Source of the DNA: Myxococcota bacterium
Lineage (GTDB): Bacteria > Myxococcota_A > UBA9160 > SMWR01
Assembly (NCBI GenBank): GCA_039030075.1
Contig: JBCCEW010000007.1
Span: forward strand, 1-64,000
Direction of reading: 5' to 3'
Length of the DNA: 64,000 nt
Part shown: positions 1-15,279 of the stretch, one piece after another
Layout of the letters: each line of letters opens with the position of its first letter
Numbering within the stretch: position 1 is the first letter of the stretch
The notes under the pieces: model-generated
The model's input: only the letters and a program-made list of their open reading frames with translations
What the model was told of the DNA's origin: nothing
Databases searched by the model: none
Made by a program: the position numbers and the translations under genes

Positions 1-151
1 CGAACGCATCCGGCCAGAAGATGACCTCGGCCGTCTCTTCGAGGACTAGCACCCCGTCAGGCGATCCGAAGCGGGCGACAGCGGCGAAGAAGCCATCGTG
101 GCTGGGCGGCGCACTCAGCGTCCAGCTCGGCGAATCCATCCGCCTGGTCAT
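1..151 (-). CDS. Integron cassette 4 ORF, hypothetical (3' end outside window)
   Basis: Open reading frame on the minus strand that starts with ATG at 151 and runs off the left edge of the window; 50 codons are visible with no stop. It begins 20 bases after the recombination point of the neighbouring attC site, as cassette genes normally do. The visible protein starts MTRRMDSPSW and shows no motif I recognise. A purine-rich CAGGAG abuts this ATG, so an in-frame ATG four codons later may be the real start. Function unknown; the claim rests on position inside the cassette array. Confidence 0.5.
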   Translation of the reverse strand, partial: MTRRMDSPSWTLSAPPSHDGFFAAVARFGSPDGVLVLEETAEVIFWPDAF

Positions 152-170
152 CTCCTGGGTTGCGTTCGCC

Positions 171-294
171 GTCTAACGGATATGGCGTTCAGCTGCTGGG
201 GCACCTTGCCGCCGTGGGCTGAGCGCGCCGGCCCAGTATGCCAGAGCCGGGTTGAACGCGGCGGGCCCCGGTCAGCTGCAACGCCTTGTTAGGC
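171..294 (-). repeat. attC: attC recombination site A (124 bp)
   Basis: Read on the minus strand it starts with GCCTAAC (294-288), which fits the R'' consensus RYYYAAC, and ends with GTTAGAC (177-171), which fits the R' consensus GTTRRRY. Inside are the pairing arms GGCGTTGCAGCTG and CAGCTGAACGCC, which can fold into the stem used by integron integrases. It follows the 86-aa cassette gene. Its 124 bp is in the size range of the long attC sites of sedentary chromosomal integrons. Confidence 0.9.
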
Positions 295-317
295 AGCGAT
301 GCCCGAGACCAGTATGG

Positions 318-578
318 CTACCGCCGTTTGGCTGACCACCAACTCCCGACGCGCAAGGCTCCTAGGAGGAGTAGCACCAGGGTCACGGCAGCAACGACGA
401 AGGGCAGGACGACGCCAAGTACCAGCTGACCCAGTACAGTGAGCAGCTGGGCGACGCCCGAAGCGCCTCCGAAGAGCGCGCTAAGCCCGAGCGAAATGGC
501 CAGAAGGATGACCAAGCCCTTTCCCACGATTCGGGCTAGCGAATCCCCGAGCTCCCCACTCTCTTCCCATTCCCCCAC
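318..578 (-). CDS. Integron cassette 3: small membrane protein, hypothetical
   Basis: 86-aa protein whose ATG at 578 lies 8 bases inside the cassette boundary (attC B R' at 586-592). It starts with an acidic hydrophilic segment (MGEWEESGELGD). Two hydrophobic stretches follow, roughly residues 20-42 and 44-73, and the C-terminus is short and basic (WWSAKRR), so it is probably an inner-membrane protein with two TM segments. No family recognised. The gene is in cassette orientation, divergent from the integrase, and is bounded by attC A and attC B. Confidence 0.7.
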   Translation of the reverse strand: MGEWEESGELGDSLARIVGKGLVILLAISLGLSALFGGASGVAQLLTVLGQLVLGVVLPFVVAAVTLVLLLLGALRVGSWWSAKRR

Positions 579-585
579 GGTCGCT

Positions 586-714
586 GCCTAACGGCTCAGG
601 TGTTCAGCTGCACCCAGCCGCCGCCGGGGTCGCTGAACCGCCATTGTTTGAAGCCACAGTCTACTCGGGATTGGGGCCTCGCTGCAGGGTGTCAGCTGCA
701 ACGCCTTGTTGGGC
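586..714 (-). repeat. attC: attC recombination site B (129 bp)
   Basis: On the minus strand it begins GCCCAAC (714-708) and ends GTTAGGC (592-586), matching RYYYAAC and GTTRRRY. The outer arms share the CAGCTG-containing sequence with sites A and C. The central about 80 bp differs from the other two sites, so it is a separate lineage of the same attC family. It follows the 192-aa cassette gene. Confidence 0.9.
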
Positions 715-724
715 TGCGTGCGCG

Positions 725-1303
725 CTAGAGGCAACGGACATCGAAAGCCGCCTCGTTGGGGGCATCGGTAGCTGTGAGCCTCACGCGCTCCTGCCCGCTG
801 AGCCTGAGCTGAATCTCGGTCGTGCTGCCTGGAATCGCATGCCGCACCGGCAGGGCTTCGTAGTGCGCCAGCACGGCGTTTGCTCTAGCCGATCCATCGA
901 AAGAGAAGGTGGCGACGAAGTCACAATGATCACCGTTGCCTGTGAGGACTCCTACATCGGACCGCAGCAACAGTACGGATGTGCCGGGCGGTGGAGAGGC
1001 CAGGAACTGCCCAGCGAAGGTCGAGAGGCGCCAGGTGTTGATCGCGAAAGAGCTCAGGCCCGCAGCGACCCAGAGGAAGGGAAGGAACGACACCGTCAGA
1101 CCCAGCGCCGCAGCGATGAGAGTCGCCGGGCTCTGCAGCCGGGAAGCGAGTGGCGCCGCCAGCCATCCCGCAACGAGGAACAGGGCACCTGTCGTGAGTG
1201 AGATTGCCGGGACGGAAAGGCGCAGGCGAACCGCGGCGAATGCCAGGAGGAAAACAAGCCCAGCTAGGCCAAGCGCTACGAATACGCGACGCCAAGCGGT
1301 CAT
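725..1303 (-). CDS. Integron cassette 2: membrane protein with C-terminal soluble domain, hypothetical
   Basis: 192-aa protein starting 8 bases inside the cassette boundary at 1311. The N-terminal half is hydrophobic, with about three to four predicted TM segments (residues about 7-24, 32-50, 60-85). The C-terminal about 100 residues look like a small soluble beta-rich domain with Cys in SDHCDF-like and DVRCL contexts. No family recognised. It is the only long minus-strand frame between attC B and attC C, as expected for a one-gene cassette. Confidence 0.7.
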   Translation of the reverse strand: MTAWRRVFVALGLAGLVFLLAFAAVRLRLSVPAISLTTGALFLVAGWLAAPLASRLQSPATLIAAALGLTVSFLPFLWVAAGLSSFAINTWRLSTFAGQFLASPPPGTSVLLLRSDVGVLTGNGDHCDFVATFSFDGSARANAVLAHYEALPVRHAIPGSTTEIQLRLSGQERVRLTATDAPNEAAFDVRCL

Positions 1304-1310
1304 TCACGCA

Positions 1311-1436
1311 GCCCAACGGATCAGGCGTTCAGCTGGCGGGGCACCTTGCCGCCGCGGGCTGAGCGCACCCGCTGAGTATGCCAGAAGCCGAGATTGGCGC
1401 GCGCGGACCCCGGTCAGCTGCAACGCCTTGTTAGAC
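1311..1436 (-). repeat. attC: attC recombination site C (126 bp)
   Basis: On the minus strand it begins GTCTAAC (1436-1430) and ends GTTGGGC (1317-1311). It is very similar to attC A along its whole length, including the central GGCACCTTGCCGCC segment, with only scattered differences. It ends the first cassette after attI. High similarity among the sites of one array is typical of chromosomal integrons. Confidence 0.92.
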
Positions 1437-1445
1437 GGCGACAGG

Positions 1446-2003
1446 CTACCAGAACCGCCACCAAGGCTTGCGTAGGTCGTGGAACGCTCTAGGACAGAAT
1501 GATTCGGGTGGCTCCTCGTCGTGCTTGAATGCAGTGACGGCCTTGGCCATCTCTAGCGGTACTTCGAAGATGAAGTCCACCTCGGCCGCATGTGATTGTT
1601 CGTGATCCTGTTCTCGAATGTGCGATCGCTCGATTTCCTGATAGAAGGCGGGGAGCTCCCCAAGCGCTTCGAGGTGGTAGAGATCTAGTTCGCTCTGGTG
1701 CTTGACGGACCAGGTCAACTTTCCTTCGTTCCAGTAGTAAGCCTCGGTCGCCATGACGTGCTCTTCGATCGAACAAGCTACCACCGGATACGAGGCCGAC
1801 AGCGACCGGAGGATCTGCGGCTCAACGAGGCGGCTGCACGAGCGGCCGGCGATGACCAGATACCAACCGTCTCGCCAGATGCCGCCGCAGAGCGGGCTCT
1901 CCCAACGCGGGTCAGCGACCTCTGTGGGCTCCATGGGGACGGCCGCGCACAGCTCGTCTAGGTCCAGGGTCTTGGCGGCAAACCACGACAAGGAGTAGCC
2001 CAC
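1446..2003 (-). CDS. Integron cassette 1 (attI-proximal) protein, hypothetical
   Basis: 185-aa soluble protein starting MGYSLSWFAAK, ATG at 2003, 34 bases inside the attI junction. That N-terminus resembles a family of short cassette-encoded proteins often starting M-x-Y-x-L-S-W that I associate with integron arrays; this is from memory and not confirmed. No signal peptide or TM segment. The middle is rich in Glu and His and the C-terminus is aromatic (PWWRFW). As the first cassette after attI it should be the best expressed if a Pc promoter is present. Confidence 0.75.
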   Translation of the reverse strand: MGYSLSWFAAKTLDLDELCAAVPMEPTEVADPRWESPLCGGIWRDGWYLVIAGRSCSRLVEPQILRSLSASYPVVACSIEEHVMATEAYYWNEGKLTWSVKHQSELDLYHLEALGELPAFYQEIERSHIREQDHEQSHAAEVDFIFEVPLEMAKAVTAFKHDEEPPESFCPRAFHDLRKPWWRFW

Positions 2004-2036
2004 GATCGTCGCGCAACTCCCGAACGGTCTGGCGCC

Positions 2037-2199
2037 GTCTAACAGGTAATCAACGCAGTCGCGGCGTCGGTCAGGCCATCACCCGGAACTCAGGCGAAGC
2101 GTCTGCAAGCCACCGCGGCTGCTACCGAAACCTACCATCACGCCGTCATATTGCGATACGGGGGCTTCGGCGTGTCCTGGATATGGGTGATATGGCAGC
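2037..2199. promoter_or_regulatory. attI: attI region with Pc/Pint promoters (core at 2037-2043)
   Basis: GTCTAAC at 2037-2043 (GTTAGAC on the minus strand) is the junction where cassettes are inserted. The 156 bp between it and the integrase start is the only space between the divergent integrase and the cassette array, so it must hold attI, the integrase promoter and any cassette promoter. I see no clear -35/-10 pair and no SOS-box palindrome (CTGT-N8-ACAG) here, so regulation is unknown. Confidence 0.7.
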
Positions 2200-3210
2200 G
2201 TGGGTTACGCTGAGGTCCTCCCGGTCCCGGGGAGTCTCGCCTTGGCGAATCCGCCTCCTCGGCTTCTCGACCAGGTGCGTCGCGAGCTTCGGGTCAGACA
2301 CTACTCGCCGCGGACCGAGTCCGCCTACGTCCATTGGATCGTTCGGTACATCCGCTTCCACGGTGTTCGGCATCCGAACGAGATGGGCGTGGCCGAGGTG
2401 TCCGCGTTCCTGAGCCACCTGGCCGTGGAGGCGAACGTGGCGCCGTCGACGCAGAACCAGGCGCTGAACGGGCTCGTCTTCCTGTACGGGCCCGTCCTCG
2501 GCCGACCGCTCGGGGAGCTCGCCGGTGTGGTCCGCGCACGCAAGGCCCGAAAGCTCCCCGTGGTGCTCAGTCGCGAGGAGGTGGAACGCCTGCTGATGCG
2601 TTTGGAGGGAAGCCCGCGCCTGGTGGCTTCCCTTCTCTATGGATCCGGTCTGCGACTCCGCGAGGCGCTTCAACTGCGCGTGAAGGATCTCGACTTTGCA
2701 CGCGGCGAGCTGACGATTCGCGAAGCCAAGGGCGGCCGCGACCGCGTGAGCGTCCTCCCGGAGACGCTACACGAGCCGCTGAAGGCACAGATTCGCAGGG
2801 TGCGCGAACAGCATGCGCTGGACCTGTCGGCCAACCGGGGCTGGGTCCCGATGCCGGGTGCCCTGGTGCGGAAGTACCCGAACGCGCCTCTCCAACTGCG
2901 ATGGCAGTTCTTGTTCCCCTCCGCCCGCACCGCCCTCGATCGGCGCACGGGCCGCATCGGCCGCTGGCATTTGGCGGAGAGTTCGGTGCAGAGGCGGGTG
3001 AAGACGGGGGGGGAGGAGGCCGGGATCGCCAAGCGGGCGACCTGTCACTCGCTGCGCCACAGCTTTGCGACGCACTTGCTCGAGCGGGGTCAGGACATCC
3101 GAACCGTCCAGGAGCTTTTGGGCCACCGCAGCGTGACCACGACGATGATCTATACGCACGTACTCAATCGCGGTGGCCTCGGCGTGCGTAGCCCACTCGA
3201 CGCGCAATAG
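2200..3210 (+). CDS. intI: Integron integrase IntI (tyrosine recombinase)
   Basis: 336-aa tyrosine recombinase that inserts and excises gene cassettes at attI and attC sites. An N-terminal SAM-like DNA-binding domain ([20 protein letters not shown]) is followed by the catalytic domain. Catalytic residues visible are Arg152 ([10 protein letters not shown]), His283 and Arg286 (HSLRH), His309 (LLGHRS) and nucleophile Tyr318 (MIYTHV). Residues about 205-245 carry the extra segment found in IntI but not in XerC/D ([17 protein letters not shown]), and the C-terminus GVRSPLD is typical of IntI. The start is GTG at 2200; a TTG at 2239 is an alternative. The frame is intact, so the enzyme is probably active. 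Confidence 0.95.
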
Positions 3211-3309: not shown

Positions 3310-3354
3310 TGGCACGCCGGGAGGGATTCGAACCCCCGACCCTCAGGTTCGAAG
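3310..3354. repeat. att repeat 1: 45-bp copy of the tRNA-Arg(TCG) 3' end
   Basis: Identical over 45 bp to 15203-15247, the 3' half of the intact tRNA-Arg(TCG) gene including CCA, and in the same orientation. It stops inside the anticodon arm, so it is not a working tRNA. Such copies are made when an element integrates into a tRNA 3' end. This one marks the outer boundary of the distal island. It shares a further 6 bases (AATCAC) with repeat 2 but not with the tRNA. Confidence 0.9.
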
Positions 3355-3376
3355 AATCACCGGAGGATGAGGAAGA

Positions 3377-4918
3377 TCAATGAGTTACGCCGTCGGGCCG
3401 GCACAGAGCGGCACACGGCGGCACGGAGCGGCAGGAATCGCGGCCCCACGGCCCTATGCGGCCCCTTTTTCCCCGAGACGTCTGATGAACCGGCTCCCTT
3501 CGCACAGGCGTTCCATCGACGATCACTTCGACGATGTCCTGAAGCCGCCGGATATCGTCAGTGGGGTCGCCTCGAACGAGCAGCAGGTCGGCTTGGAGAC
3601 CGACCCGGACGGCACCGAAATCGATTGGCGCCCCGTCGGCGATCCACCGCGCGCTGTCGAGGGTGGCCGATCGAATCGCTTCGGCTGGGGTCATCCCGGC
3701 GTCGACGAAATGCGCCAGCTCACGATGGAGCGCCGCGCCCGGAAACACGCCGGCACCTTGAGGGTCGGTGCCGGCGAGGATGGTCACCCCGGCCCGATGA
3801 AGCTTCATCATGTTGCGCTGGCCGATTCCGAGCACGTCGAGATCCCCTTCCCGGGGACCGCCGATCGATCGGAACTCCCGGAGGGCATCGACGAACTCTG
3901 CCGGCGGCGGATAGAACGACTCGATGACGGCGCGCGGAACCGTTTCGATCTCCATCGGGATCGGATCGATCGGTCGGCTCACCACGCTGACGACCCTATG
4001 CATCACTTCGATCGTGACGACCATCGGGATTTCGAACGCGGCCAGGCGCTGGACGTCAGCGTCCGATAGCGGCTCCCGGGAAACGCCATGAACCCAGAGG
4101 TCGGTCCCGGCCTCGCCAGCATCGAGCGCGTCCTGCAGGCTGCCGATATGGGACACCCAACGAAGGCCGAGCTCGTTCGTCCGCTCGTCGATCGCCGCCA
4201 TCGTCTCGAGCGAGATTCGGGGCGCGCGCGGCGGAATTCGATCGACGGCGACCTTGATCGCGTCGACGCCAGCGGAATGGAGATCATCGATCGCGGATCT
4301 CGCTTCGGACCGCGTCTGGACCTCGTGCGCGATGCCTGAAGTCAGCAGCCACGAGATCCACCAGGGTGCGAACAGCTCGCGGACCGCGACCGGATGGCCA
4401 CCGGGGCAGGTCACCATCTGTCCGGTCGTCAAGATGGCGGGGCCGACGAGTTCGCCGCGCCGGACGGCCTCGCGGCGTGCGACCGCCGCCTTGGTGTCGA
4501 CGTCGGCGGGATCGAACACGGTCGTGACGCCCGCGTAGAGATAGCTCTGCATGTTGGCGAGCGGATCCGCGCCCTCGAGTTCCCAGAACGGCGACCGCGA
4601 GAGACTCACGTGGCCGTGCATGTCGATGAGGCCGGGTAGAAGGGTCGCCCCGCTTCCGTCGATCACGAGGAGACCGTCCGAAGGTATCGTGCCCCCCTTC
4701 TCGATGGCCGCGATTCGGCCCCGCCGGACGACCACGTCGAGCGAGGTTTCGACAACGCCGCGCTCGACCTCGAGGACATCGACGTCTCGAATCAGGAGCT
4801 CGTTCACGGGCCGCGCGGGGTAGCTCACGGACGCTGTCTCCACGTTCGTGGCGCAGGAGAGCAGCGAAGCGGCCAGGGCGAGAATCTGGAACGCAAGGAC
4901 CGGTGAAATCGGTCGCAT
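3377..4918 (-). CDS. Amidohydrolase family lipoprotein
   Basis: 513-aa metal-dependent hydrolase of the imidazolonepropionase/prolidase-like amidohydrolase group. The N-terminus is a lipoprotein signal (LALAASLLSC, Cys about 22), so it is probably anchored in the envelope. The beta-barrel entry GLIDMHGHV gives the HxH metal site; further ligands are likely in WVSHIG, WVHGVS and GTDPQGAG (Asp). Substrate unknown. The last about 40 residues (after VRREPVHQT) are encoded by the island-end repeat, so the native C-terminus was probably replaced at integration. Upstream and divergent is a TetR gene that may control it. Confidence 0.85.
   Translation of the reverse strand: MRPISPVLAFQILALAASLLSCATNVETASVSYPARPVNELLIRDVDVLEVERGVVETSLDVVVRRGRIAAIEKGGTIPSDGLLVIDGSGATLLPGLIDMHGHVSLSRSPFWELEGADPLANMQSYLYAGVTTVFDPADVDTKAAVARREAVRRGELVGPAILTTGQMVTCPGGHPVAVRELFAPWWISWLLTSGIAHEVQTRSEARSAIDDLHSAGVDAIKVAVDRIPPRAPRISLETMAAIDERTNELGLRWVSHIGSLQDALDAGEAGTDLWVHGVSREPLSDADVQRLAAFEIPMVVTIEVMHRVVSVVSRPIDPIPMEIETVPRAVIESFYPPPAEFVDALREFRSIGGPREGDLDVLGIGQRNMMKLHRAGVTILAGTDPQGAGVFPGAALHRELAHFVDAGMTPAEAIRSATLDSARWIADGAPIDFGAVRVGLQADLLLVRGDPTDDIRRLQDIVEVIVDGTPVRREPVHQTSRGKRGRIGPWGRDSCRSVPPCAALCRPDGVTH
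3394..3466. repeat. Island-end repeat, copy 1 (GGCAC-rich)
   Basis: About 73 bp that matches 7024-7096 with only a few differences. It contains several GGCAC or CGGCAC units at short spacing and ends in GGCCCC repeats. Both copies lie about 40 bp from an att repeat, at the same end of each island, so they are probably recombinase arm-binding sites or conserved island termini. Function is inferred from position only. Confidence 0.7.
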
Positions 4919-6940: not shown

Positions 6941-6985
6941 TGGCACGCCGGGAGGGATTCGAACCCCCGACCCTCAGGTTCGAAG
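6941..6985. repeat. att repeat 2: 45-bp copy of the tRNA-Arg(TCG) 3' end
   Basis: Identical over 45 bp to 3310-3354 and 15203-15247 and in the same orientation; the identity with repeat 1 extends 6 more bases. It separates the outer island (amidohydrolase, TetR, SDR remnant) from the inner island (Z1 cluster and integrase chimera), as expected after two successive integrations at one tRNA. Confidence 0.9.
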
Positions 6986-7023
6986 AATCACGCGACCTCA
7001 AGAAGAAACGGTGACTTGCGCTC

Positions 7024-7096
7024 TCGGGCCGGCACAGCGCGGCACACGGCGGCACCGAGCGGCAGGAATCACGGCCCCACGGCCCTGGGCGGCCCC
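7024..7096. repeat. Island-end repeat, copy 2 (GGCAC-rich)
   Basis: Second copy of the 73-bp sequence at 3394-3466, again just inside an att repeat. The shared order is GGGCCGGCACAG, GCGGCACACGGCGGCAC, GAGCGGCAGGAATC, then CGGCCCCACGGCCCT. Confidence 0.7.
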
Positions 7097-7175
7097 TGCC
7101 CAGGACCCGTGTTGGCCCGGTGGTAGCTTGGGGCCTGCGGACGATCTCCACCAGCGCCGGCACCTCAGCCGCCGG

Positions 7176-8189
7176 CTAGAGGCAACCGAAGAGCCCGCCT
7201 CGCTCACGGACTTCTTGCAGAGAGAGGGGCTTCGCCAGCGAGAAGTCCGAGGAAAACTTGACGCTTGTCACGCCTTTGGGCGGCACACCCGTGATGCGCG
7301 GTACCGAAGACGCATCGAAGAATTCCAGTGACTGGCGAGCGAACTCGATACTGAAGGCAGTCGACTGCAACGAGCGATAGTCGCGCCCGAGCGATGCAAG
7401 GAACACCGAATCGAGGCGCGTAGTCAGTTCCGGATCTCCAGAGGCGTGGGCCGCAAGCGACCCCCACAAATCGCGAAGACTGAGCCCTCCGACAGCTCGC
7501 CTCAGCCGAATCGAAGCGAAAACTACGCTCTCGCCCTGTACAGGGCTCGTCTGCTCGTGGCTTACAACGTGACGTCGGCCCGAGCCTTGGGTGCTCTTCA
7601 CCTCAATGCACGACCACCCTCGCGAGAAGTCGTACCTCTCATCAGTGTCAGAGTGCCACGCGCGAAGCAACTCGCGTGGATCCGCCGACTCGGCGATGAG
7701 GAACATCTCAGCCCAAAGCCCAGAAGCGGACCGGCTTCCACCCGCTGTCGCAGTGCGAAACAGTTCGACCAACCGCGAGAAGCTCTCGGCAAGTTCGCCT
7801 CCAGTGGGCCGGGCAGGGAGCGGCGAGAGCGTCGACGCAATCACCCGGAAGAAGACGTCGACGACGGGAGAGCTTGGCTCCAAGCAGGTAACGAGAGAAA
7901 ACCGTCCAGTCCTCGACGACTCGCTCGAGGAATTGATCGAGCACCGCCTTGAGTGAACGATCGATAGATTCGGAAGAGAGACCGATAGCTGCGGATGAGA
8001 CGAACTCGAGGATGGGACCAGGAGAACAGCGTTCCCGCAAGCGTCTCTAGCGACGTGCCAGTCTTCGCGGTCAGCCAGCTCGTTGCCAACCATGTCGCCG
8101 TCGCCCGCATCTGGCGGGAGAGCAGTGAAACAGTCGACCAGCGAACCCGGTTGACCAAGCGACGGGTTACTGGTCTTGGACGAGGACAT
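7176..8189 (-). CDS. DUF4420 / PD-(D/E)XK motif protein of a Z1-type defence cluster
   Basis: 337-aa protein with the hallmark core of the PD-(D/E)XK motif family DUF4420: SGLWAEMFLI, then WHSDTDERYDF (acidic residue), then CIEVKSTQGSGRRHVVS, in which E-V-K is the predicted nuclease signature. Its ATG lies inside the end of the Z1 gene (23-bp overlap), so translation is probably coupled. Known relatives sit with Z1, GHKL ATPase and methyltransferase genes in restriction-like defence loci. It is the last gene of the minus-strand operon; att repeat 2 lies about 190 bp downstream. Nuclease activity is inferred from the motif. Confidence 0.85.
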   Translation of the reverse strand: MSSSKTSNPSLGQPGSLVDCFTALPPDAGDGDMVGNELADREDWHVARDACGNAVLLVPSSSSSHPQLSVSLPNLSIVHSRRCSINSSSESSRTGRFSLVTCLEPSSPVVDVFFRVIASTLSPLPARPTGGELAESFSRLVELFRTATAGGSRSASGLWAEMFLIAESADPRELLRAWHSDTDERYDFSRGWSCIEVKSTQGSGRRHVVSHEQTSPVQGESVVFASIRLRRAVGGLSLRDLWGSLAAHASGDPELTTRLDSVFLASLGRDYRSLQSTAFSIEFARQSLEFFDASSVPRITGVPPKGVTSVKFSSDFSLAKPLSLQEVRERGGLFGCL

Positions 8190-10359
8190 CCGCGACCACT
8201 TCGTCCGAAAGCCAGAAAACGGGAGCCAGCACGTCCTCGCAAACTATGGTGGATGCATCATCTCTCACCGGTCCATCTGTCAGAGTCAAGAGATGAAGCT
8301 GCAACGTAACGTTCGTGTCCCGCATGCTCCGGTCGCCACCGTAGACTGCGCTATCCCTATGGGCGCCCTGGAGTAGGCGAACGATCTTGTCATTCCGAAC
8401 CTGCCGTCGAGCCCGAAAATTCGGCCTCATCCGATAGATTGCGCACATCTCTCCTTCATGCTCGCTGAGCCATCGGTCCAGCATGACCAACGCGGCTGTG
8501 TACTTCCTGCTGTCTTCCGCATCGGACACACGAATGTCAACGAGAAGATCGCTATAGACCTCGGCAAGTCGCATATAGGCGACGTCGTGAAGGTGATCAT
8601 CCCTACGACCCGGGTGCCCTTCGACCTGCTCGAACCTATCGGCGTTCGACAGCATGAAGCTACGAGCCGATTCTCTATTCGCGTCGACCTCTCCCCGATG
8701 CGGGCTATTCAAAATGCACCACCCGTCTCGGAACAAGGGCCGCGCATAGTCAACGTCGATAACGTTCGCGCGGGTCGGCTGTAGCCGCCTGTCCAGCAGA
8801 AACGCTCGGCGCAAATCCCTTAGCGACTGACCACTTTCGACATGCGCCGCAAGCCGGCCACGCACGTCGTCCTCGTGCACGACATACCGCTGGTACGCCC
8901 GAATGACATCAGTGTCCAGGAATACGCGACAGAATCCCAAGTACGGGCGCTTGTAGCCGAAGAACCGTGCTCTCTGTTGGATCGTATCAGCGTTCCAGAC
9001 TCCGGGCCCGCGCGGCATGTAGGTGACGGTAAGACCCTCGATCGTAAAACCCCGGTCGAGCACTTGGCCCCCGACCAGAATCCACGAGTACTCACGATTC
9101 CATTTGATCTCGCGATTGGCCTGGCGGAGGGAGTTGACCAGTCTGAGTTCAGTGTTCGAAATCGCAGAAAGCAAGTGAACTTGAAGCTCTTCGAACGTCT
9201 CGAGGTCTTCGACGGTCCGCGACAACTCTGCGTGCGCCCGGCGAAACTCCTCCTCGAGTTCCGCACGAGCCGAGTCACCAGGTGGCAGATCGAGGATATC
9301 GGCCCAGAGACGCGTGATCGCCTGCACCCATCCATAGAACTGCGTGTGGTCGCCAGTGTCCTTGGACGGGTGGATCATCATGGAGCGGTTCTTCGGCTTT
9401 TCGTCTCGGCGGAGCCGGCCGGAAGCGACCCCCAGAAAAAACACCTGCATGGCTCGTTCAAGCGAATCCGGCGGGTCGACAAGGGGGTTGGCTGCGCTGG
9501 GGATGTCGGCGGGGGGGATTCCTGCGACTAGTGGAGAACCGTCCGCAAAGAACTCTGGACCGCCCACGTAATCTGAGCCGGGTTCCAACAGGTGCGCGAA
9601 TTCCGGAGAAAGCACGTCAATCAGGTTGATCAGAAGCACCGCTTGTGGCGTCGCCGTGTATTGAAGGAACGTGTGTCGAGGAAGGAGGGCTCGAACTAGG
9701 TTGATGTTCAGATACGTTGTGCTGAGTTCGCCGCGTCTCACCAGTGTGTTAAGGCTAGCTTGGTCGGCCTCGTCGTCGATGATCAACGACGGCACTTGAC
9801 CGATCGCGGCTTCAAGCCGCTCAAGTACCAAGAAGAGATTCTCGAGCCGCCTGTGGTTCTTGAGTACCGTGACCAAAACGGTCCGGCGGTCCTGCTTTGG
9901 CACCGATTCCATTTTCCACTGAGCGAGAACATCCCGTATCCGGGTTGCATCTTCCGGCTCGGGATTGTGTATGTGGTACCAGCTCGGAAAAGTCGATTCC
10001 TCGATTCCGAGATCTTGCGTGAGACGCTCCTGCGATTGGTCCGCGAGCTTCGTCGTCGTTCCTGCAATGACGATGACCAGCTGAAAGTCATTGTCGGCGG
10101 CCATCGCGGCGACGGTCGTGAACGACAGCGTTTTCCCGCTTTGGACGTAACCCACGACCAGGCCAGTAGCACCCTCGGAGTCCGCACTTGGGGAGTTGCA
10201 CTGGCTGAGAATCTCTTGCGCTGCGACCAGGGTGGCGTTCTGGGCGCCGGGATCATCTCCGAGCTTTCGCCTGACGACGCCGTGGGACAGCGGTCCAGCG
10301 CTTGGCTCCCATGAACGCTCACCGGCCGCAACAACGCGAATGACCTCGTCTTGAGACAT
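8167..10359 (-). CDS. Z1 domain-containing SF2-like helicase/ATPase
   Basis: 730-aa Z1 protein. Visible are the Walker A VVGYVQSGKT (Lys76), Walker B LIIDDEADQAS, a motif III-like FLQYTATPQ, and the Z1 signature VGGQVLDRGFTIEGLT followed by the arginine-finger segment QQRARFFGYK. The order matches superfamily 2 ATPases. Z1 proteins are found almost only in defence clusters with a GHKL ATPase and a PD-(D/E)XK protein, as here. It starts 9 bases after the stop of the GHKL gene and overlaps the DUF4420 gene, so the three form one operon. Probably a DNA translocase or helicase. Confidence 0.92.
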   Translation of the reverse strand: MSQDEVIRVVAAGERSWEPSAGPLSHGVVRRKLGDDPGAQNATLVAAQEILSQCNSPSADSEGATGLVVGYVQSGKTLSFTTVAAMAADNDFQLVIVIAGTTTKLADQSQERLTQDLGIEESTFPSWYHIHNPEPEDATRIRDVLAQWKMESVPKQDRRTVLVTVLKNHRRLENLFLVLERLEAAIGQVPSLIIDDEADQASLNTLVRRGELSTTYLNINLVRALLPRHTFLQYTATPQAVLLINLIDVLSPEFAHLLEPGSDYVGGPEFFADGSPLVAGIPPADIPSAANPLVDPPDSLERAMQVFFLGVASGRLRRDEKPKNRSMMIHPSKDTGDHTQFYGWVQAITRLWADILDLPPGDSARAELEEEFRRAHAELSRTVEDLETFEELQVHLLSAISNTELRLVNSLRQANREIKWNREYSWILVGGQVLDRGFTIEGLTVTYMPRGPGVWNADTIQQRARFFGYKRPYLGFCRVFLDTDVIRAYQRYVVHEDDVRGRLAAHVESGQSLRDLRRAFLLDRRLQPTRANVIDVDYARPLFRDGWCILNSPHRGEVDANRESARSFMLSNADRFEQVEGHPGRRDDHLHDVAYMRLAEVYSDLLVDIRVSDAEDSRKYTAALVMLDRWLSEHEGEMCAIYRMRPNFRARRQVRNDKIVRLLQGAHRDSAVYGGDRSMRDTNVTLQLHLLTLTDGPVRDDASTIVCEDVLAPVFWLSDEVVADVLVQDQ

Positions 10360-10368
10360 CCTGCCCCC

Positions 10369-11919
10369 TCAGCTCTTGGATAGTGCGAGTTCGAGAATCC
10401 GACTTAGCTTGATGCGTACAGCCGGGGCGCGTTTCGCTCCACCGTCCCGAGCAACCTTTTCTGCAAGTCCCAACCCTGCGGCGATCCTCACGAGGGGCTC
10501 GAGCTTTACGGCATCGGAGGCTCCGAAGCGCTCTGTAAATGGGTGCGTCAATGCCATTCGCAGGTGCAACGCCTCGCGCCCGTCTGATGATTCTGCATCG
10601 CTCACTTCGAGCCAGCTTCCAACAGCGGGATCATCAACGAGTTCGAGCGTCACCTTCCATCGGCGCTCTTCGAAGTCGATATCGAAATCCCTTGATGTCG
10701 AGAACTCGGCCGGCTGCAAAGCCTCAGGAGGTGACGCCTCGTCGGGTGCTTCCTCCGATGCAGCAAGCAGAGCTTCTTCTCCGTGCTGCTTGAGCGCCTC
10801 CTCGGTCTTCGAGACTGACGTGGCGGCCGCTCTCTGACGGTCTTTGCGGGTGGGGCGGACTCGATAGTTTCGTGCCTGGGAGAGTAGGTCAAGCGCGTCG
10901 GTCGAGATTGCCTCGCGCAGAAGCTCAAGAAACGGCTCTTCGTTGTCGTCCCATTGAAAGCCATCCTTCGTGTGAGAGACGTCAAACCCTTCTAGGTGCA
11001 GCTCGCCGAAGATTCGCTGGTACTCAAAGTCGTTGGCGTTCCCGAAGATCTGCTTCGGTCGATACTTTTCGTCCCCGCTCCCGACAATCAATCTATTCCG
11101 GCGAAACAGTGAGAACCCGGCGTATCTCGTGCTTCCTGTCTTTCGGAGGGCTACGAAACCTCGGGCGCTAAGACCATCGCCGAAATCAAACTCCTCAAGG
11201 TTGTAGCGCCATTCCAGCGCTTCTCCGGATGCTTCATGCGCTGGCGAGAACTTTGGTGCCACCAAGACTTCCGGCTCCTCGTACTGGATGTCTTCGCCTC
11301 GAACGACCAGCTTAAGAGTTCCTGCTCTGAGAAAAACACGGTAGATGTCCGCTAGGTGCTCCTTGATTTTCGAAACTGTCTTGCCGACCGGTGTGTAATT
11401 GAGGTCGAGGAGCTCGATCTCAGTGAAGTGGGAATCCGGATCGCATGGTGTGGCTTCGACTTCGAGCTCTTCCAGCCGGTCATTCACGATCTTGTCGATC
11501 TCGAACTCGACGCGACGAGCGAACGGCTCACCGAGCGCGCTGGTTCGCACCGACCATCGCGCCGCGAACCAGCACGCGGCGCTCTTCATTCCCATCCCGA
11601 ACTCAGACAAACCCTCTCTATCGAGAGGAACCTCTGCCGGGCGAAACGCCCTCGGGAAATCTGCCAGTGGTATTCCCGCTGCGTTGTCACGAATCACGAT
11701 ACGTCCTGGCTCGCTCGCCTCTATGTCGATCTCAACTCGGGTCTTGTACAACGGACCCTCGAGGGCCTGGAGCTTCTTGTCGGAGGCGATTGCGCTCTGG
11801 AGGGAGTTGTCGACGAACTCGGCCAGCGCGAACCAAGGCTTGTAGTTGAGGTGCTGGAGCACCGAGAGCACCGCGACTCCCGGTCGAATGTTCACGCTGC
11901 TTGATTCAGAGACGTCCAT
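10369..11919 (-). CDS. GHKL (MORC/MutL/Hsp90-like) ATPase
   Basis: 516-aa ATP-binding protein. The Bergerat fold is clear near the N-terminus: ALAEFVDNSLQSA (motif N), VIRDNAAGIP (DxGxG-like) and SEFGMGMKSAACW (GxGxK lid). The remainder is an S5-like transducer plus an uncharacterised C-terminal domain with an acidic, Ala/Glu-rich linker near residues 375-415. The start is taken as ATG 11919 (MDVSESSSV), because longer frames would enter the divergent methyltransferase promoter. It is the first gene of the minus-strand operon. Base composition here is visibly lower in GC than the flanks. Confidence 0.88.
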   Translation of the reverse strand: MDVSESSSVNIRPGVAVLSVLQHLNYKPWFALAEFVDNSLQSAIASDKKLQALEGPLYKTRVEIDIEASEPGRIVIRDNAAGIPLADFPRAFRPAEVPLDREGLSEFGMGMKSAACWFAARWSVRTSALGEPFARRVEFEIDKIVNDRLEELEVEATPCDPDSHFTEIELLDLNYTPVGKTVSKIKEHLADIYRVFLRAGTLKLVVRGEDIQYEEPEVLVAPKFSPAHEASGEALEWRYNLEEFDFGDGLSARGFVALRKTGSTRYAGFSLFRRNRLIVGSGDEKYRPKQIFGNANDFEYQRIFGELHLEGFDVSHTKDGFQWDDNEEPFLELLREAISTDALDLLSQARNYRVRPTRKDRQRAAATSVSKTEEALKQHGEEALLAASEEAPDEASPPEALQPAEFSTSRDFDIDFEERRWKVTLELVDDPAVGSWLEVSDAESSDGREALHLRMALTHPFTERFGASDAVKLEPLVRIAAGLGLAEKVARDGGAKRAPAVRIKLSRILELALSKS

Positions 11920-12073
11920 GATCGCTTTCGAGGTCCTAGCGGACCGCTGTAGAACAATTTTCACCTTGGCGTATCTGCGTCGCTCACCGATCCCAGTCAA
12001 CGGGCCAGGGATCGGTTCTGCTACCCTGCTCCTGGGTGAGCTAGTTACGATCATAATTCATGGTGGCGCAGAA

Positions 12074-13285
12074 TTGGGTAAGCGGTCGACACCGCGGGTC
12101 GAACCCCAGCTAGGTGTCTTGTCGGTCTTTTCTGGGATAGGCGGCCTGGACCTCGGATTGGAAAAAGCCGGGTTCAGAACGCTCGCGTGTATCGAGAACG
12201 GGGAGTTCGCGCGGCGGTCGATTCTCCAAAGCCCGCTAAAGCTCCCGTTGCTCGACCAGGGCGACGTCACGAAGGTGGTGGAATCCATTTCTCCACATCA
12301 TTTTGGGCTTCGGGAAAGGGAACTCGCTGTGTTGGCTGGCGGCCCGCCTTGCCAGCCCTTCTCCAAGGCCGCTCAGTGGACGTCGACGGGTCGACAAGGC
12401 GCGGATGACCAGCGCGCCGCTTGCTTCGAGAGCTTTCTTGACCTGGCAGAGACATTCTTGCCACGCGCGGTTCTCATCGAGAACGTGCAAGGATTCGTTC
12501 AGGGCCGAGAGTCCGCGCTTCCCCAGCTTGCATCTCGTTTGAGACGCATCAACGAGGCGCACGGAACGCGCTATGAGCCTCACTGCCGAATTGTCAATGC
12601 GGCCGACTTCGGTGTTCCTCAACGAAGGTATCGAGCAATCGTCGTGGCATTCAGAGATGGAGAGGCCTGGAAGTGGCCGAAGCCCACCCACGCGACCAAT
12701 CCTGTTCGTGCGTGGGATGCGATTGGGCACCTGCGGCTGAAGGACGACGAGTACCTTCCACTACGGGGCAAGTACAAAACCTTGCTGCCATCAATTCCAG
12801 AGGGTGCCAACTACTTGCACTTCACCGAACGGGGACGGGGCAGGTACAACCTATTTGGCTACCGAACCAGGTACTGGTCCTTCTTGCTAAAGCTTGCGAA
12901 GAACCAACCAGCCTGGACCATTGCCGCAAGCCCGGGCCCCGCAACGGGCCCCTTCCACTGGGACAATCGACCCCTATCGTTGCCGGAGCTGCTGAGGCTG
13001 CAGAGCTTTCCGGCGGAGTGGCCTGTTGAGGGGCCGAGGCGTGAGAGGATCAGGCAGATCGGAAACGCGACGCCGCCTTTGCTTGCTGAAGTTCTTGGAC
13101 GTTCCATTGCGCAACAAGCCTTTGGGTTGAGCTGCGCACGGGGTCCGGCGCTGCGAATCTCGCGCAGGAGAAACATTCCCGCTGCACGCCGAGCTCGGCC
13201 ACTTCCGACCGAGTGGGTGGCTCGACACGGGAAATACAAGGCGCATGCGGGCGAAGGGGCTGGGCCGATGCCGCGGACCAGCTAG
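12074..13285 (+). CDS. DNA (cytosine-5-)-methyltransferase
   Basis: About 403-aa C5-methyltransferase transferring a methyl group from SAM to cytosine in a target site. Motif I is FSGIGGLDLGLEKAGF, motif IV GGPPCQPFS with nucleophile Cys93, motif VI LIENVQGF, motif VIII PQRRYRAIV and motif X QIGNATPP. The start is uncertain: TTG 12074 keeps the usual short lead before motif I; longer frames would overlap the divergent ATPase promoter. It probably protects the host from the Z1/DUF4420/GHKL cluster divergently encoded next to it. The last about 50 residues are basic and not conserved. Confidence 0.9.
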   Translation: MGKRSTPRVEPQLGVLSVFSGIGGLDLGLEKAGFRTLACIENGEFARRSILQSPLKLPLLDQGDVTKVVESISPHHFGLRERELAVLAGGPPCQPFSKAAQWTSTGRQGADDQRAACFESFLDLAETFLPRAVLIENVQGFVQGRESALPQLASRLRRINEAHGTRYEPHCRIVNAADFGVPQRRYRAIVVAFRDGEAWKWPKPTHATNPVRAWDAIGHLRLKDDEYLPLRGKYKTLLPSIPEGANYLHFTERGRGRYNLFGYRTRYWSFLLKLAKNQPAWTIAASPGPATGPFHWDNRPLSLPELLRLQSFPAEWPVEGPRRERIRQIGNATPPLLAEVLGRSIAQQAFGLSCARGPALRISRRRNIPAARRARPLPTEWVARHGKYKAHAGEGAGPMPRTS

Positions 13286-14382
13286 TTCACACCGGATGCA
13301 CCTTACGGTGCAAGGCGTAACCCCGCTCCACTGATAGGAAACGTGCGTAGTGCGGGCAAGTTACGTTCGAGCCTCCCAACACGCCAAGTGATCGATATCT
13401 CTCCGCTATCGGCGTCTTACATGGAGACGGCGAGACACATATCGGCGTATGAGTTGTCGCGGAACAGCTTGACGCCACACTTTTCGTCGATACGTTGATG
13501 ACATGCGCAAGAGCAACCAGCTCCGAGAAGACGGCATCCGGGGCCCACCGGAGTTCGCCCGTCCCAACCCCCTCGACTCGCGGGAATCGAGTCGATCGAG
13601 ACGCCAGAGCTGCGAGAGGCGTCTTGGGGGGAGGGGCGAATCTCACGGACAACAGAATTGGGGCCGGACCGGCACCCCGGTCGAGTTTCAAGAACGAAGC
13701 TCGTTTTCCTAACTCTAGCCATGGGCGTCCTGAACCCCAGACGACCTCTCGCTCCTAAAAATCCGATTCGCGATATCGCGAGACGACAGACATCAACCTT
13801 TCGCCCGGAGGAGTGCCGGCGAGAAGTGGAACCAGAAGGTCGACCACTCCCCGCTCGGCACTCCCGGATAGCGAACTCGCCGACGCAGCGACTGCAGACC
13901 GCGTCTTGTCGGAGCGAACGCCCCGAACAACTCGCCGCACCCGCGAATCGCCGGCCCCCTCGGACTCGGTTGGCTTGGCATGCCAACTCTGCGCACAAGG
14001 CCCCTTGCCTCGACAGCGTGAACTAGTCGTCGCTGCCGAAGTAAGAACGACACCGCCCGTGTTGGGCTGCGCCAAGGTGCTCTTCGCGCGCAGTCCCGAA
14101 TGGGCGGTGGAGTTCGCGACCCTACGACTTGTCAGCGCGTTGACCTACGTCAACGCGCTGCAAAACCCTCGCTGTCGTCTCTCTTCTCGACTACCACGAA
14201 GATTCATACCGATCAACGGATTCCCCGCCGGACGCTAGGCGCTCCGCCACTTGCGTCTTATTGGCAAGGTGCGCAACTGTACAGGCGCCGGTCCGCGAGA
14301 TTCTACGTCTGTGGGAGCCTCGAGCGCTTCACGTCGTGAACACAAGATTCCCGCTCGACTACCCGCTCAGACCCCACCCCAG
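13286..14382. other. Long stretch without a convincing gene, island interior
   Basis: About 1.1 kb between the methyltransferase and the relaxase-integrase chimera. Frames of up to 193 codons exist on both strands but overlap each other, have no motif and no good ribosome site. A perfect hairpin TGCACC-TTAC-GGTGCA at 13297-13312 lies just after the methyltransferase and may end its transcript. A second, stronger inverted repeat lies at 14133-14160. The stretch is probably the scar of a deletion that removed most of an integrative conjugative element. Confidence 0.5.
14133..14160. repeat. Perfect 12-bp inverted repeat with 4-base loop
   Basis: CAGCGCGTTGAC, CTAC, GTCAACGCGCTG. It ends 222 bases before the relaxase-like start codon. 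No T-run follows. Inverted repeats of this size occur next to nic in the oriT of MobF systems, so it may be an oriT remnant; a terminator or operator is equally possible. Confidence 0.6.
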
Positions 14383-15252
14383 ATGATTGCGTTGCTCTCA
14401 CTCTCGGCGGGTATCGCGGCGGGAGGCGACCGCTACTACGCCGACCTTGCTCGCGAGGACTACTACTTCGAAGGCGGCGAGCCACTTGGCGAGTGGCACG
14501 GGAAGGGCGCTCAGAAACTCGGCCTCTTCGGAACCGTCCAGAAGGGCGAACTCCGCGACGCTTTCCTCGGCTTCGCCTACGGCACCCCCCTGAATCAGAA
14601 GGCCGGCCGAAACGAACCAGACTCTCGCGGGTACAAGCCGATCCGCGCCTGGGACGGGACGTTCAATGCGCCGAAATCGGTATCTATCGTTCGCTTCGTA
14701 GCGGACGAGGATATCGGGACAAAGGTCCAGCAGGCTCACAAGGAAGCTGTTCGAGCCACGCCGATGACCGAAGGCCTCACCGAAGAGCTCTTCGATCTTT
14801 TGGCCGAGCGCCGCAAGGAAGGGCTCGCCCGAGGCTGGTCTGAGACTCCCGAGTGGGTCTTCTGCACGGAGACGGGAACCCAACCTCAGCCGAGAAACGT
14901 CGAGCGCGTCTGGTACCGCTTGAGGCGGCGCGCCCAGAAGCTCGGCGTTCGGCCTCTGAAGCTCCACTCCACGCGCCACACGTGGGCGTCCATGGCGCTC
15001 CAGGCGGGCAAGAGCATCCGGTGGGTTGCCGAAGTTCTCGGTCACTCCGACCCGGCTCTCACGCTCCGCGTCTACGCCCATGCGATGCGCGACGAAGAGC
15101 GCGACCTCTCGTTCGCTGACTTCTCGCGAGACCCCGAACGGCCCTATACGGCCCCGGCGCGTTTCGCTGATGACGAGCAACTCGCTAAGTCTGCGGAAAG
15201 ACTGGCACGCCGGGAGGGATTCGAACCCCCGACCCTCAGGTTCGAAGCCTGA
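14383..15252 (+). pseudogene. Chimeric MobF relaxase N-terminus / tyrosine integrase C-terminus
   Basis: One open frame of 289 codons. Residues about 1-122 match the start of TrwC/TraI (MobF) relaxases: YYADLAREDYYFEGGEPLG with a tyrosine cluster, then WDGTFNAPKSVSIVRF, the conserved APKSVS element; the metal-binding HxH motif that should follow is absent. From about residue 125 it becomes the catalytic domain of a phage-type integrase: HSTRHTWAS (His-x-x-Arg), WVAEVLGHSD and nucleophile Tyr in LRVYAHAM. The last residues, ARREGFEPPTLRFEA, are encoded by the tRNA-Arg 3' end itself. Most likely a deletion fused two genes of an integrative conjugative element; the product lacks the relaxase core and the integrase N-terminus. 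Confidence 0.8.
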
Positions 15253-15279
15253 TGCTCTATCCAGCTGAGCTACCGGCGC
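15203..15279 (-). tRNA. tRNA-Arg(TCG)
   Basis: 77-base tRNA on the minus strand with CCA encoded. The acceptor stem GCGCCGG pairs with CCGGCGT (one G-U pair). The anticodon loop is CTTCGAA, giving anticodon TCG for CGA codons. D- and T-arms (GGTTCGAATCC) are standard. Its 3' 45 bp (15203-15247) is the attachment site copied at 3310 and 6941. The chimeric integrase reads into it, which leaves the tRNA intact. Confidence 0.97.

Follow-up and report, generated by a model that had tools for sequence, protein, structure and literature searches.

A probable chromosomal integron and two large integrase-less attC arrays with paired decay and GC gradients in a Myxococcota draft genome

IntI recombines the bottom strand of attC sites with attI, and cassettes are thereby inserted beside intI. 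The locus considered here raises the question of whether a recombinase gene and the adjoining repeats at the end of a contig constitute such an integron, and of how they relate to sites of the same kind elsewhere in the genome. The locus occupies bases 1-3210 of the window, the stretch of DNA analysed as a whole, which is the first 64 kb of a 264-kb contig (C7) in a 5.76-Mb draft genome of 55 contigs that is estimated to be 95% complete.

The initial annotation described a full IntI with its specific insert and catalytic residues, and profile searches bear this description out. The 336-aa product of the gene at 2200-3210 on the plus strand matches the integron tyrosine recombinase model TIGR02249 over the full model length at 443.3 bits (cut-off 265), and its best PDB match is Vibrio IntI4 (2a3v, E=5e-92). 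All six catalytic residues are kept (R152, K177, H283-xx-R286, H309, and Y318), and the integron-specific insert was found in the sequence. A XerC/D-type or phage recombinase would have the tyrosine-recombinase fold in common with IntI, and the curated XerC and XerD models do match this protein, but at 134.5 and 129.4 bits these matches are weaker than that to TIGR02249 and fall below their own cut-offs of 335 and 330. An IntI tree had been proposed as a check, and in a tree of 110 sequences the window protein fell outside XerC/D, with a split at 99% SH-aLRT separating all IntI rows from the genome's two Xer-like (XerC/D-like) recombinases. The model scores, the insert, the tree, and the attC and attI sites adjoining the integrase gene refute a Xer or phage identity, to which we assign practically no chance.

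The same tree places the window IntI loosely near planctomycete IntI (82%) and apart from the IntI of its own GTDB family. Among the closest named IntI is one with 60% identity from a MAG of that family. An IntI search of the 55-contig draft found no second IntI, and by this search the C7 integrase is the only predicted intact one of the genome.

A divergent array of at least four cassettes, three complete attC sites, and an attI junction had also been claimed, and each of these was recovered. The attI/promoter region between intI and the first cassette (2044-2199, no strand assigned) contained no sigma-70-like promoter that we could find. It is bounded by the attI core site GTTAGAC, read on the minus strand at 2043-2037 and lying 157 bp before intI, which forms the junction with cassette 1 and whose extended end matches that cassette's own attC at 15 of 16 nucleotides. 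From here the cassettes run on the minus strand, opposite to intI, with genes for a 185-aa protein in cassette 1 (1446-2003), a 192-aa predicted membrane protein, classed by inspection, in cassette 2 (725-1303), and an 86-aa hydrophobic protein in cassette 3 (318-578). All three complete cassette genes lack an assigned function, and no Pfam or NCBIfam model matched any of them. The contig stops at window base 1, which cuts the array off inside an incomplete fourth cassette (1-151, minus strand), the sequence of which holds an open reading frame (MTRRMDSPSWTLSAPPSHDGFFAAVARFGSPDG...) that runs off the contig. An Rfam search of the first 20 kb of the window returned no integron-related RNA family.

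The three attC sites, likewise on the minus strand and with their recombinogenic bottom strand on the plus strand, are attC1 (1311-1436) and attC3 (171-294), both of type A, and attC2 (586-714), of type B, whose inner stem is different but self-matching. Two such subtypes occur in the genome, with inner stems that differ in sequence yet match within each site. Two covariance models, R1 and R2, were used because a consensus fold failed, MAFFT having misaligned the two stem subtypes. A generic home-made attC finder was dropped as too strict, since it recovered few sites. R1 scores attC1 and attC3 at 133.5 and 130.9 bits and R2 scores attC2 at 147 bits, all three sites being in the training sets, while independent profiles trained on other contigs only give 106, 112, and 93 bits for attC1, attC2, and attC3. 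Each site carries the two 7-base core boxes, L boxes, and a palindromic CAGCTG stem, and on its bottom strand a C and a T stay unpaired. A half-site pattern found 19 matches in the genome versus 0 for the reversed control.

Folding of the attC sites, which had been suggested as a further check, held in part. Inner stem arms pair within sites, including attC2, at 96 of 126 positions (10,000 shuffles averaged 66.7 and never exceeded 94), while predicted fold energies for the attC1/attC2/attC3 set were only modestly below those of shuffled sequences (z -1.7, -0.5, and -2.4). The within-site match of the arms is thus the stronger structural evidence of the two. The start of each cassette also resembles its own end over the 6 nt past the core (74 of 96 positions matching, shuffle mean 52, maximum 70), and the same is true of cassettes in related genomes (133/168, shuffle mean 88, maximum 110). 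Self-pairing of cassette ends over 9-11 nt is already known for most cassettes (PMC2727003), and for this reason we count own-end matching toward integron identity rather than as a novelty.

The cassettes show one gene each, one direction, and complementarity to their own ends. Taken with the integrase, the attI site, and the attC sites, these features make it very probable that 1-3210 is a genuine integron with an intact IntI, and the C7 locus looks like a working platform, as judged from its sequence. We call it chromosomal because the 264-kb contig carries tRNA genes, a large plasmid being formally possible.

In operation, IntI would bind a cassette's attC through its folded bottom strand and join this attC to attI (G|TTRRRY, 2037-2043), so that new single-gene cassettes would enter beside intI and be read on the strand opposite to it. 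This arrangement resembles the sedentary chromosomal integrons of the Vibrio and Xanthomonas type, in which intI likewise diverges from the array, attI is present, one attC family prevails per genome, and cassettes of uniform orientation each carry a single short gene of no assigned function. Unlike in those integrons, most attC sites here lie away from intI, and the array beside intI is seen for its first four cassettes only.

Outside C7 the genome has about 54 more sites of this attC family, mostly in two integrase-less arrays. The two-subtype covariance models count 43 sites on C18 (E up to about 0.001), 10 on C16, 3 on C7, and 1 on C10, the last a lone attC-like site of the same family at 142114-142238. 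The C18 array spans 41500-85990, beside the genome's only dnaA, with its 43 sites at 41.5-85.5 kb, and its dense part covers about 36 kb (49-86 kb). The faintest matches reach 11.7 kb and are scattered below about 50 kb, which blurs the distal edge. Profiles trained on other contigs gave attC-like matches on C18 in a single orientation, 60 versus 0. The C16 array spans 99946-106900, with its 10 sites at 100.5-106.9 kb. Both arrays have at least 2 clustered attC and no intI nearby, which is the IntegronFinder definition of a CALIN (PMC9024848), and, as in Xanthomonas (PMC12444791), the genome has an intact intI at another locus. C18 is unlike the average CALIN in its size, with 43 detectable attC versus a mean of almost 6 (PMC9024848).

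Among the 59 cassette proteins, the majority have no Pfam match. Families found among the others include YhhN, rhodanese, NfeD, cupin, GNAT, glyoxalase, SUKH, YcxB, and ankyrin, and anti-phage models match few of the cassette proteins.

The proximal edges of both arrays meet chromosomal genes. On C18, a PEP-CTERM gene carries a half attC (AACGCCTGATCCGTT) across its stop-codon region, and the genome's only DnaA match lies upstream. The first C16 cassette begins at 99946, and its start matches its own end at 13 of 15 bases; the sequence just before it has no resemblance to attC or attI, and a methyltransferase gene lies upstream. A search of both array edges for an attI copy or an intI remnant found none. 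GC skew on C18 and C7 gave no clear replication direction.

These edges bear on the idea that C7, C16, and C18 are parts of one array that the assembly split or misjoined. The common attC family, the stop of C7 inside a cassette, and the inflation of CALIN counts in draft genomes (PMC9024848) would fit such a history, and an assembly still in 55 contigs could contain a misjoin at an array edge. Against it, both arrays sit inside contigs of 117-123 kb, their proximal edges run into the PEP-CTERM gene and dnaA on C18 and the methyltransferase gene on C16, and each has its own gradient running from its own edge. We consider a single split array distinctly unlikely.

These gradients involve two markers. 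With profiles from other contigs, attC score drops away from the proximal end on both C18 (rho 0.64, n=47, p=1.3e-6) and C16 (rho -0.976, n=10, p=1.5e-6). GC content on C18 is correlated with position in 1-kb bins over 41-85 kb (rho -0.63), as is the GC3 of cassette-strand genes over 40-86 kb (rho -0.54, p=3e-5). In quintiles of C18 from distal to proximal, attC scores are 40, 58, 56, 61, and 97, and GC values are 0.653, 0.628, 0.624, 0.621, and 0.613; toward the far end of the contig GC climbs to 0.69, the host level. On C16, GC rises from about 0.61 to 0.67 from proximal to distal. The two most proximal attC on C18 score below the sites that immediately follow.

When attC score is compared directly with cassette GC within C18, the correlation is weak (rho -0.24, p=0.12), and therefore the two C18 gradients agree in position more than in fine detail. 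We regard this as the chief reservation about the gradients. It also favours a rival explanation, by which they reflect a drifting cassette source, or selection close to a promoter, instead of age; possible expression and selection of the proximal cassettes would fit this as well. This explanation has to contend with the fact that two arrays agree in the direction of attC decay and of GC drift to host values, and with the faint one-orientation attC matches on C18 that extend into sequence of near-host GC, and we regard it as unlikely.

The simplest reading of both gradients, and in our judgement a likely one, is that each array grew from one end while the part left behind decayed. For C18 and C16 this growth would have gone on for a long time, with the youngest cassettes sitting at the proximal edge while the older ones lose attC function and drift to host composition, the order of age being inferred from the gradients. 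If the gradient does correspond to age, it offers a means of measuring array growth rate, cassette survival, and attC death.

How cassettes might have reached these arrays is a separate matter. The proximal edge of C18 looks like a deletion scar, and because of this we suggest that the array probably once had a platform of its own that has since been lost. The C7 integrase could also act on the C18 and C16 arrays in trans, so that either this enzyme or platforms of their own may have fed them. A fuller reading, in which both integrase-less arrays are time-ordered archives built by addition at one edge with rare shuffling and GC amelioration, and with the C7 IntI feeding them, now or formerly, in trans at non-attI sites, is more speculative, and we hold it to be doubtful as a whole. 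If it were true, the position of a cassette would date horizontal gene capture in a lineage.

The integron and the CALIN components are all of known kinds; what is uncommon is the gradient in two markers. A strong one-way attC decay together with a GC gradient sets C18 apart from the usual CALIN, and no prior account of attC decay paired with a GC trend turned up in a limited literature search. The paired gradient of decay and composition in large integrase-less arrays is the part that merits specialist follow-up.

With regard to the host, a Myxococcota or deltaproteobacterial origin had been suggested, and kinship points to Myxococcota: the MAG with the 60%-identical IntI, "Deltaproteobacteria bacterium AB_69_Bin_122," belongs to the window's own family and is placed by NCBI in Myxococcota. 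Genome sizes of up to 13 Mb within the phylum are in keeping with this. Of 17 genomes of the family, 7 have an IntI match above the cut-off and 14 have matches to the window-type attC model; across the phylum, such an IntI occurs in 85 of 379 genomes sampled. The attC model gave just seven matches, all weaker, in 24 named loci mostly from other phyla. The IntI of the family are scattered over the tree while the attC type is common to most of its genomes, which hints at integrase replacement.

The initial annotation called this a less studied setting, and the literature agrees. A 2021 list of integron-bearing phyla leaves out Myxococcota (PMC8618304), and later papers touch on integrons of this phylum just in passing (PMC9668308, PMC12772301). 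Those reports concern an integrase or attC in the same phylum, in the form of a resistance module in sul4 MAGs (PMC12772301) or isolated attC matches (PMC9668308), whereas the array described here is native. Integrons in Myxococcota are thus hardly described, yet not rare, and the present locus adds a well-defined integron and attC family to a phylum with IntI in about a fifth of sampled genomes.

Some further observations concern the DNA next to the integron. Partial 3' copies of tRNA-Arg(TCG) lie at 3310-3466 and 6941-7097 of the window, and the intact gene is at 15203-15279. The copy at 3310-3466 is identical to the intact gene over 45 nt, and the two copies, which share about 110 nt of flank, have 87% identity between them. 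Elements that inserted at the tRNA gene may have left them as scars, and the integron sits just outside the outermost of them. Beside the intact gene, an ORF at 14251-15252 has an N-terminal TrwC relaxase match (residues 57-170) and a C-terminal phage integrase match (160-278), and could be either a relaxase-recombinase fusion or a decayed join. Between the tRNA-Arg copies, at 7176-13285, is a defence-like island with a DUF4420 PD-(D/E)XK protein, a Z1-domain helicase-like protein, a HATPase, and a C-5 cytosine methylase.
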